From the NCBI GenBank assembly GCA_001769125.1, contig MEOG01000046.1:109625-163407 (forward strand): DNA of 53,783 nucleotides. Direction: 5' to 3'. The DNA comes from Bacteroidetes bacterium GWF2_35_48 (lineage in GTDB: Bacteria; Bacteroidota; Bacteroidia; Bacteroidales; GWF2-35-48). Numbering within the stretch: position 1 is the first letter of the stretch; each line of letters starts with the position of its first letter. Below, piece by piece: positions 24,949 through 26,933 of this stretch. The notes beneath the pieces were generated by a model. That model was not told the origin of the DNA. It saw nothing but the letters and a program-made list of their open reading frames with translations, and made no database searches. A program made the position numbers and the translations under genes.

Positions 24949-25572
24949 TTATTTTTTACAATAATTGTCAGGGTTGAAAATAATATAATTTCGAATTTGA
25001 TTTAATCGGTTTGTATTTGCAATAATTTCGTCATAATAACGTGCCTGCCAACCAATCCATTGTAACCCTAATTCATTATATTTTTTTGTGCATGCCGATT
25101 TAAATGAACGGATAATTGCATGAATTGATCCGGGTTTGGGCGATATTTTTGCCATGATTTCATTTTTTATAAAATTTTCGTGGTTGGTGGTGTGTTTGGT
25201 GTTATGTTTGTCGTCATTTAGATACGTTGCATGCAACGTATCTACGGGACAAACAATATCGGGACAAACATCAACACCATTTGATTCAATTTCGGGTTTT
25301 AACCGTTTAATGCCAATTATTCCATGAATATGATTGGGCATAACGATAAATTGATCCAACCATATATTTTCAAAATGTTGTGGAATTTCACGCCAAAACA
25401 AATCGGCAATTAATCCTATTTCATTTAATATCATTTTACCATCCAATACATCACCGAAACAACAAATGTGATTCTTGGTACATATTGTAATAAAATATTT
25501 ACCTCCGCGGGCATAATCCCATCCTTTTTTTCTCGTTGTTTCTGCGCGATATTTATTTCCAAACAAGGTCAT
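24949..25572 (-). CDS. REP-associated tyrosine transposase (RAYT), IS200/Y1-like
   Basis: A 207-residue HUH-type protein. YFITICT (~26-32) and the HUH motif His81-Ile-His83 in MPNHIHGII are diagnostic. FKSACTKKYNE (~157-167) and WIGWQARYYDEII (~172-184) are the C-terminal family segments. Tyr165 is my candidate nucleophile, but Tyr179/180 cannot be excluded. Residues ~93-140 are a hydrophilic variable stretch holding a DNA palindrome (25219-25244). The ATG overlaps the mpl stop by 4 nt (ATGA), so translation is coupled to mpl. I see no terminal repeats or target duplication around the gene, consistent with the immobile, single-copy habit of RAYTs. Family role: processing of REP palindromes. 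Confidence 0.85.
   Translation of the reverse strand: MTLFGNKYRAETTRKKGWDYARGGKYFITICTKNHICCFGDVLDGKMILNEIGLIADLFWREIPQHFENIWLDQFIVMPNHIHGIIGIKRLKPEIESNGVDVCPDIVCPVDTLHATYLNDDKHNTKHTTNHENFIKNEIMAKISPKPGSIHAIIRSFKSACTKKYNELGLQWIGWQARYYDEIIANTNRLNQIRNYIIFNPDNYCKK
25219..25244. repeat. perfect 26-bp palindrome inside the RAYT reading frame
   Basis: The core GATACGTTGC-ATGCAACGTATC is fully self-complementary and extends by TA on both sides. On the coding strand it encodes about residues 110-118 (VDTLHATYL). The codons just upstream carry a direct repeat of GTTTGTCCC. The sequence resembles short dispersed REP-type palindromes I recall from Bacteroidota and cyanobacteria. Confidence 0.85.
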
Positions 25573-26933
25573 TTTTCTCTAATTATTTTTTCTGCAAAAT
25601 CCTTGAAATTAATTCCCGAAAAATTACCGGAACTCATCATAAGAAGATTTGTATCTTTCCAATTTGTTTCCAATAAGATTTTAACGAGCATTTCTGAATC
25701 TGTAAATACGGTTACATTGTTACTTGCAAATGCCTCTTTAACCTGTTGCGGTGTTATTTCTTTCAATCGCTTGTGAGCTATGGTTGCAGGATTGAAATAC
25801 ACATACGCAACATCTGCTGTTTCCATAGAACCATTATACAAAGGGAGAAAATCTTCATTCAGACTGCTAAATGTATGCAGCTCCATACAGGCAACTAATT
25901 TTCTTTCGGGAAACTGAACTTTCACCGCGCTGGTAGTGGCTTTCAGCTTGGAAGGCGAATGGGCAAAATCGAGAAATACATTTGTAAAATTATTTTTTGT
26001 CAGCAATTGCAAGCGTTTTGATGCACCTTTAAAAACAGAAATGGCTTCGTAAAACTGTTCGTCTGACAATCCGATTTTATTACAAACAAACCTTGCTCCG
26101 TTCAGGTTTTGCAAATTGTGTTCACCAAATATCATCAGAGGAGTTTTTGTACCTCCATGTATTACATACGTGATGCCATCTTTCGTTTCATTTACATGCG
26201 TGGAATAAGGTATTTTATCAATAACATTTTTTGATACAGCAACAATTTTATTAATATTTTCATCGCCCTCGAAGTAAACAAGGGAACCATTTTTTTCAAT
26301 CAGATCAATAAAAACACTAAACTGCTCAACATAAATTTCAAATGTTGGAAACACATTGATATGATCCCATGCTATTCCACTCAATAATGCTATATTGGGC
26401 TTGTAGAGATGAAATTTCGGGCGTCTGTCGTCGGGAGACGATAAATATTCATCGCCTTCAATAATGCAGAATTTCGCATCGTGACTGAGTTGCACCATGG
26501 TTTCAAATCCTTCTAATTGTGCGCCCACCATGTAATCGTGTTTGATTTTATGATAATTTAATACATGCATAATCATAGAAGTAATGGTTGTTTTGCCATG
26601 ACTTCCACCTATCACAACACGAATTTTATCTTTCGAGGCTTCGTAAATATATTCAGGATAAGAATAAATTTTAAGATTTAATTCTTTTGCCCTGGCAAGC
26701 TCAGGATTATCTTTCATTGCGTGCATTCCCAAAATTATGGCATCTAATTTCTCCGTGATTCTTTCCGGAAACCAACCTGTTTTTTCAGGCAGTAAGCCAT
26801 ATTTGGAAAGATTTGTTTTCGCCGGATTAAATACTTCGTCGTCGGAACCAGTAATATTAAATCCTTTTTTATGCAGTGCTATAGCCAGATTGTGCATTGC
26901 GCTTCCACCAATTGCTATAAAATGAATATTCAT
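25569..26933 (-). CDS. mpl: UDP-N-acetylmuramate:L-Ala-gamma-D-Glu-meso-DAP ligase (murein tripeptide recycling)
   Basis: A 454-residue Mur-ligase-family enzyme. It joins recycled murein tripeptide to UDP-MurNAc with ATP in the cytoplasm. The N-terminal Rossmann start IHFIAIGGSAMHNLA matches Mpl/MurC. The ATP loop is GGSHGKTT (109-116), and EGDEYLSS and the GIAWDHINVFPT segment follow. The phrase HFIAIGG and the overall length favour Mpl over MurC, and no mur cluster surrounds it. It is divergent from dapF, whose product makes the meso-DAP in its substrate. The last 4 nt overlap the RAYT start. Confidence 0.9.
   Translation of the reverse strand: MNIHFIAIGGSAMHNLAIALHKKGFNITGSDDEVFNPAKTNLSKYGLLPEKTGWFPERITEKLDAIILGMHAMKDNPELARAKELNLKIYSYPEYIYEASKDKIRVVIGGSHGKTTITSMIMHVLNYHKIKHDYMVGAQLEGFETMVQLSHDAKFCIIEGDEYLSSPDDRRPKFHLYKPNIALLSGIAWDHINVFPTFEIYVEQFSVFIDLIEKNGSLVYFEGDENINKIVAVSKNVIDKIPYSTHVNETKDGITYVIHGGTKTPLMIFGEHNLQNLNGARFVCNKIGLSDEQFYEAISVFKGASKRLQLLTKNNFTNVFLDFAHSPSKLKATTSAVKVQFPERKLVACMELHTFSSLNEDFLPLYNGSMETADVAYVYFNPATIAHKRLKEITPQQVKEAFASNNVTVFTDSEMLVKILLETNWKDTNLLMMSSGNFSGINFKDFAEKIIREK

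Follow-up and report, generated by a model that had tools for sequence, protein, structure and literature searches.

The gene for a REP-associated tyrosine transposase (RAYT, TnpAREP) of Bacteroidetes bacterium GWF2_35_48 carries a perfect 26-bp palindrome within its reading frame, and we favour, with moderate confidence, the explanation that this gene-borne palindrome is the RAYT's own cognate REP, carried in a disordered linker of the protein and maintained as a DNA element. The parts of this reading differ in firmness: the status of the palindrome as cognate REP of its RAYT is very likely, its maintenance as DNA and not as peptide is likely, and its role as a resident seed copy is proposed tentatively. 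All coordinates refer to the window, i.e., the whole stretch of 53,783 nucleotides (contig MEOG01000046.1, positions 109,625 to 163,407) that was analysed. The features are as follows:

24949 to 25572, minus strand: RAYT (TnpAREP) gene, encoding an HUH-Y1 nuclease of 207 aa, assigned from motifs, profiles and fold
25569 to 26933, minus strand: upstream ligase gene, presumably mpl-like (context only), the TGA of which overlaps the RAYT ATG as ATGA
25324 to 25332, minus strand: H-I-H of the HUH motif, residues 81–83
25180 to 25305, minus strand: variable linker, residues about 90–131, predicted to be disordered from AlphaFold2 model confidence
24985 to 24987, minus strand: probable catalytic tyrosine Y196 (YIIFNP), its role assigned by analogy with TnpAREP
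25219 to 25244, no strand: perfect 26-bp palindrome at the core of the in-gene REP
25218 to 25245, minus strand: 28-nt REP unit with a GTAG foot (25245–25242) and a decayed second foot CTAA (25221–25218)
25245 to 25270, minus strand: 11-bp direct repeat TGTTTGTCCCG in two copies (25270–25260 and 25255–25245), abutting the GTAG foot

The sequence TAGATACGTTGCATGCAACGTATCTA is exactly self-complementary over 26 bp and is the longest perfect palindrome in the window (runner-up 22 bp); first-order Markov simulation of the window, repeated 100 times, gave 22 bp at most and never 26 bp. It is read in frame as codons 110–118 of the minus-strand ORF 25572–24949 (translation context ..PVDTLHATYLND..), as described in an earlier note made from the letters alone, and the location between the HUH motif and the C-terminal helix and the REP character given there were borne out. 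The coding-strand form of the unit (25245–25218) is GTAGATACGTTGCATGCAACGTATCTAA, i.e., GTAG-ATACGTTGCATGCAACGTAT-CTAA. One foot is intact, in agreement with the GT[AG]G foot of GTAG-type REPs, and the other is decayed (CTAA for CTAC). The last G of the second repeat copy is common to the GTAG foot.

On the sequence and model evidence taken together, the window protein is a RAYT. It was matched by the NCBIfam model for REP-associated tyrosine transposases (NF047646) with 40.8 bits (E 1.9e-10), below the curated cut-off of 80 bits, which belongs to one model and not to the family; the same model matched all 30 members of an alignment of the group at E ≤ 0.001. A Pfam search of the window protein gave no match, and Pfam Y1_Tnp was found in 11 of the 30 members. 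A profile sequence match to TnpAREP 4er8 was obtained (E 3e-8), and Foldseek with the AlphaFold2 model (mean pLDDT 80.6) gave 4er8, TnpAREP bound to a REP hairpin, as the top match (E 3e-6). The alignment shows no variation at H81, H83, W175 and Y196. The linker is its unconserved part, which disposes of the idea, raised beforehand as an argument against a REP, that the encoded residues might be conserved in distant homologues. Model confidence is low in the linker and lowest at residues 107–122, where the palindrome is encoded. The ATGA overlap at 25569–25572 makes translational coupling of the RAYT, as the downstream cistron, to the upstream cell-wall recycling gene probable.

The host-genome search that the earlier note called for showed that the palindrome recurs: the inner 24-mer was found at 18 own-genome sites with up to three mismatches, and the reversed-pattern control at none. 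The complete two-footed 28-mer GTRRATACGTTGCATGCAACGTATYYAC was present at 9 of the 15 own-genome sites fetched as loci. A relaxed core gave 46 own-genome sites versus 8 for the control, sister sequences such as GACGTTGCATGCAACGTC among them. Dispersal over 18 sites is as expected of a REP, albeit low beside the more than 100 copies stated in the abstract of PMC2817692.

The genome encodes four full-length RAYTs, the other three being 32–41% identical to that of the window, and each of the four carries a perfect in-frame palindrome of 22–26 bp in its linker, different in every case. Two of these palindromes are dispersed, with 18 and 17 sites; each of the other two occurs once in the whole genome at up to three mismatches, inside its RAYT. 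In the locus of the same-genus RAYT L038, from the one other genome of the family examined, no perfect palindrome reaches 14 bp. As regards the suggestion of a REP that inserted without breaking the frame, the frame is indeed kept; a single lineage-specific REP entering one gene does not describe the case, and the notion of a lineage-specific insert must be given up, as the three sister RAYTs and most of the wider group bear linker palindromes that mostly differ between groups. For one sister (L041, identical with L019) a CGTC tag was considered, as a possible exception to the statement, in the accessible part of Di Nocera et al. 2013 (PMC3733652), that no transposase accompanies CGTC REPs; it was rejected because the sister L065 has GTAG..CTAC feet within the same design. 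A separate locus (L020, G000:C118) holds a C-terminal RAYT fragment beside ORFs with repeated RRGITPS-like motifs, suggestive of read-through across several REPs.

RAYTs of the window kind (E ≤ 1e-15) were found in at least 121 of 294 genomes of the order. The order set comprised 110 RAYT ORFs from 109 loci (113 examined), being the full-length ones among the matches listed; 7 of 117 ORF segments were dropped (two shorter than 120 aa, five lacking a W[QH] motif), and L038 was left out. Linkers reached a hairpin score of at least 8 in 87 of the 110 ORFs and of at least 10 in 70. The corresponding numbers were 11 and 6 for the N-terminal parts, 2 and 1 for the C-terminal parts, and 16/550 and 2/550 for codon-shuffled linkers. 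A second set was taken from named records (the best 80 of 539 confirmed stretches, of which three loci without HUH or W were dropped to give 77); it favours relatives of the query, because all members came via one HUH peptide pattern. Its linkers scored at least 8 in 62/77 and at least 10 in 52/77, and codon-shuffled versions in 9/385 and 1/385; overall, a strong hairpin arose in 2–3% of codon shuffles. All 18 phylum labels among these best 80 of 539 included at least one hairpin-bearing RAYT (Cyanobacteriota 5/9, Chloroflexota 4/6, Thermodesulfobacteriota 3/3, several candidate phyla too; records without label 1/5), although single labels may be wrong because many records are metagenome assemblies. 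A strong hairpin is absent from 23/110 order linkers and 15/77 named-record linkers; the number of palindrome-bearing linkers is a conservative one, since degraded palindromes (e.g., L103) score below the threshold. Plasmid carriage was seen in one record (Spirosoma, 34% identity) and is of little use here.

The in-gene REP of the window is an authentic feature of an already published kind. In the accessible part of Quentin et al. 2018 (PMC6006769), in-frame REP insertions are described as predominating within subclass 2.4 tnpAREP genes. As far as that part describes the subclass, the window RAYT resembles it in the HuH motif NH[IFV]H (here NHIH), in WQ, and in a variable insertion after HuH, between beta3 and alphaC, with an in-frame REP between HuH and Y; GTAG double-foot REPs and hosts in Bacteroidetes, Cyanobacteria and other phyla are further points of likeness. 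It differs in the Y motif by one position (YIIFNP versus YIxNNP, the latter being the group consensus in our alignment) and in having no flanking REP copy: the inner 24-mer does not recur elsewhere in the whole window at up to three mismatches, whereas REPs within about 1 kb are a feature of the subclass. GTAG REPs inside varied genes are reported in the accessible part of Di Nocera et al. (PMC3733652), and these, together with the Rickettsia palindromic elements, are likewise short palindromes read through in frame; there the host genes vary, whereas here the palindromes lie, time after time, in the same linker of the presumed mobiliser's own gene. The E. coli RAYT/TnpAREP REPtron (4er8) shares the fold and the HUH-Y1 core, a GTAG-footed REP being the presumed target by analogy, but E. 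coli rayT has no strong internal palindrome (best score 6). The recognition of REPs by TnpAREP has been treated in what we take to be Corneloup-type work. In its accessible part, that study (PMC8266576) proposes two TnpAREP groups that co-evolved with their REPs.

The relationship between palindrome and RAYT was measured with 76 RAYTs scoring at least 9, core identity being taken outside the linker and the flanks being the adjacent 15 nt. For pairs at 65–80% core identity, palindrome identity was 0.75 versus 0.32 for the flanks, and in 13 of 53 such pairs the palindrome was identical over 18 nt; at 80–98% core identity, palindromes were identical in 5/5 pairs, with a flank identity of 0.47. 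Palindrome identity tracks RAYT relatedness (r 0.46, 0/2000 permutations). Palindrome types also group on the RAYT tree, which was built from few columns and has 44 of 107 inner branches open. Among close relatives (L120/L130; L106/L113/L122), the palindrome is unchanged and short repeats have turned over on both sides.

The association with further copies was examined at two scales. A further palindrome copy lay within 1.5 kb outside the gene for 17/60 RAYTs, and for 7/600 in a cross control with foreign palindromes. Four palindromes (P1–P4) were also searched in 77 draft genomes, three at up to one mismatch and P1 exactly, the same limits defining a sole copy. The 231 sites found, of which at least 23 fall within analysed RAYTs, give no unbiased enrichment because the patterns were chosen from RAYTs. 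The gene-borne copy was the sole copy in the genome in 12/23 cases, and copies were confined to the RAYT locus in 16/23 genomes. Further copies were present in 11/23 carrier genomes versus 38/285 others (Fisher p 0.0002; the others include G111 and G254, in whose RAYTs P2 occurs as a variant with a one-base loop), an association carried by two of the four palindromes (P2, p 0.003; P3, p 0.001), with P1 (0.28) and P4 (0.39) not significant. The richest P1 genomes, G174 and G078, contain 45 and 16 exact copies of AGACGCAAAATTTTGCGTCT, and none of the RAYTs analysed there (part of each genome's RAYTs) bears AGACGCAAAATTTTGCGTCT. Dispersed families without a gene-borne copy were thus seen, as were gene-borne copies without a dispersed family.

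A neutral account, similar to the view taken by Quentin et al. 2018, is the strongest competitor and is considered unlikely. It holds that insertion has a cis preference, the enzyme copying REPs into the nearest single-stranded DNA, i.e., its own gene, where the linker alone tolerates an insert; perfect copies would be young, and old ones would decay. The further copies at the RAYT locus (17/60), degraded palindromes such as those of L103 and L131, and the predicted disorder of the linker all speak for it, as does the accessible text of PMC6006769, where it is suggested that these loop insertions are harmless and may hardly affect the protein. The tree requires the palindrome to have been gained or lost at least 19 times, which favours this account too and means that the palindrome is not essential. 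Against it stand the 12/23 sole copies, for which no donor is left in the genome, and the RAYTs at 91–93% identity, in which palindromes are the same though the flanks have turned over. The same 28-mer is moreover found as sole copies at 68% aa identity (L117 vs L120 and L130), in a set selected for bearing the palindrome; identity among such sole-copy RAYTs is no test for that reason, the fair comparison being that of the 76 RAYTs. As linker palindromes are recurrent, follow RAYT relatedness and are often the sole copy, it is not enough to say that a REP inserted by chance, and the balance has moved from chance insertion toward a REP that belongs to the gene.

An mRNA hairpin controlling translation or decay of the RAYT, unrelated to the target choice of the nuclease, is improbable. 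Strong RNA folding of the region (z -5.4) would suit such a role, but any such palindrome would show it. Palindrome mismatches comprised 15 G-T, 17 A-C and 47 of other kinds; G-U on the coding strand is hence not in excess of A-C, and pairing is kept as often in the template strand as in the mRNA (17 vs 15). GTAG feet showed no strand bias among 87 palindromes (coding strand only 17, template only 10, p 0.25; both 42, neither 18), and the sequence, beyond pairing alone, tracks RAYT relatedness. The regulation at mRNA level suggested in the earlier note thus found no specific support; among the kinds of explanation, a putative cis target or recognition site, which it had also listed, fares best.

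Template switching at a hairpin during replication can make or repair palindromes without selection (quasipalindrome correction). As the origin of the conserved palindromes this is very improbable, since it would keep pairing and not sequence, and the sequence is conserved. It probably contributes to the flanks. In its favour, the longest exact direct repeat reached at least 9 nt in 39/132 flanks versus 8/660 shuffled ones, and some arms extend far past the feet (e.g., L070, L140). Inverted arms beyond the feet are a slight effect (mean duplex energy -9.9 vs -9.1 for swapped flanks). The linkers of L070, L140, L068, L105 and L128 contain perfect coding-sequence palindromes of 38–52 bp reaching past the GTAG feet. 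In one RAYT branch (L050, L059, L078, L079, L083), the linkers contain minisatellites composed of REP halves and flanked by two inverted GTAGGGGC-type REPs, which resembles a REPIN within the gene.

With the foot on the coding strand, the palindrome is read in phase 0 in 48/59 cases and in phase 1 in 11/59; none of the 59 is in phase 2, in which TAG would fall in frame. The excess of phase 0 over phase 1 makes some peptide preference possible. Conservation of the encoded peptide itself for protein function has a negligible probability: phase 0 (VET..SL-like) is commonest, but the phase differs in 16/75 same-palindrome pairs, and the palindrome-encoded residues are lowest in model confidence and unconserved.

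If the palindrome is the cognate REP of its RAYT and is maintained as DNA, constraint would act on the DNA hairpin plus the GTAG foot, and the encoded HUH nuclease would recognise this hairpin as TnpAREP recognises REPs. Enzyme and target would then stay together as a unit in inheritance and transfer, and the gene-borne copy could give rise to dispersed REP families anew. The enzyme may also feed back on its own gene via the same hairpin. A further-reaching and rather unlikely proposal is that the target hairpin is built into the gene so that enzyme and substrate form a self-contained replicator, in which the gene-borne REP persists and genome-wide REP families are short-lived offshoots, reseeded from the coding sequence with each move to a new host. 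No statement on frequent sole copies, on an own palindrome for each RAYT of one genome, or on palindromes outlasting their flanks was found in the accessible part of PMC6006769; a literature search, covering mainly freely accessible journals and their main texts, returned nothing on gene-borne REPs as sole copies or conserved against their flanks.

These observations bear on the spread of REPs and on the part that RAYTs play in their hosts. A RAYT with its presumed target in its own frame, often as the sole genomic copy, offers a compact system of one gene and one hairpin with a clear read-out. Should it be the copy in the gene that persists, REP families would have a gene as their source, and models of their birth and loss would be altered.
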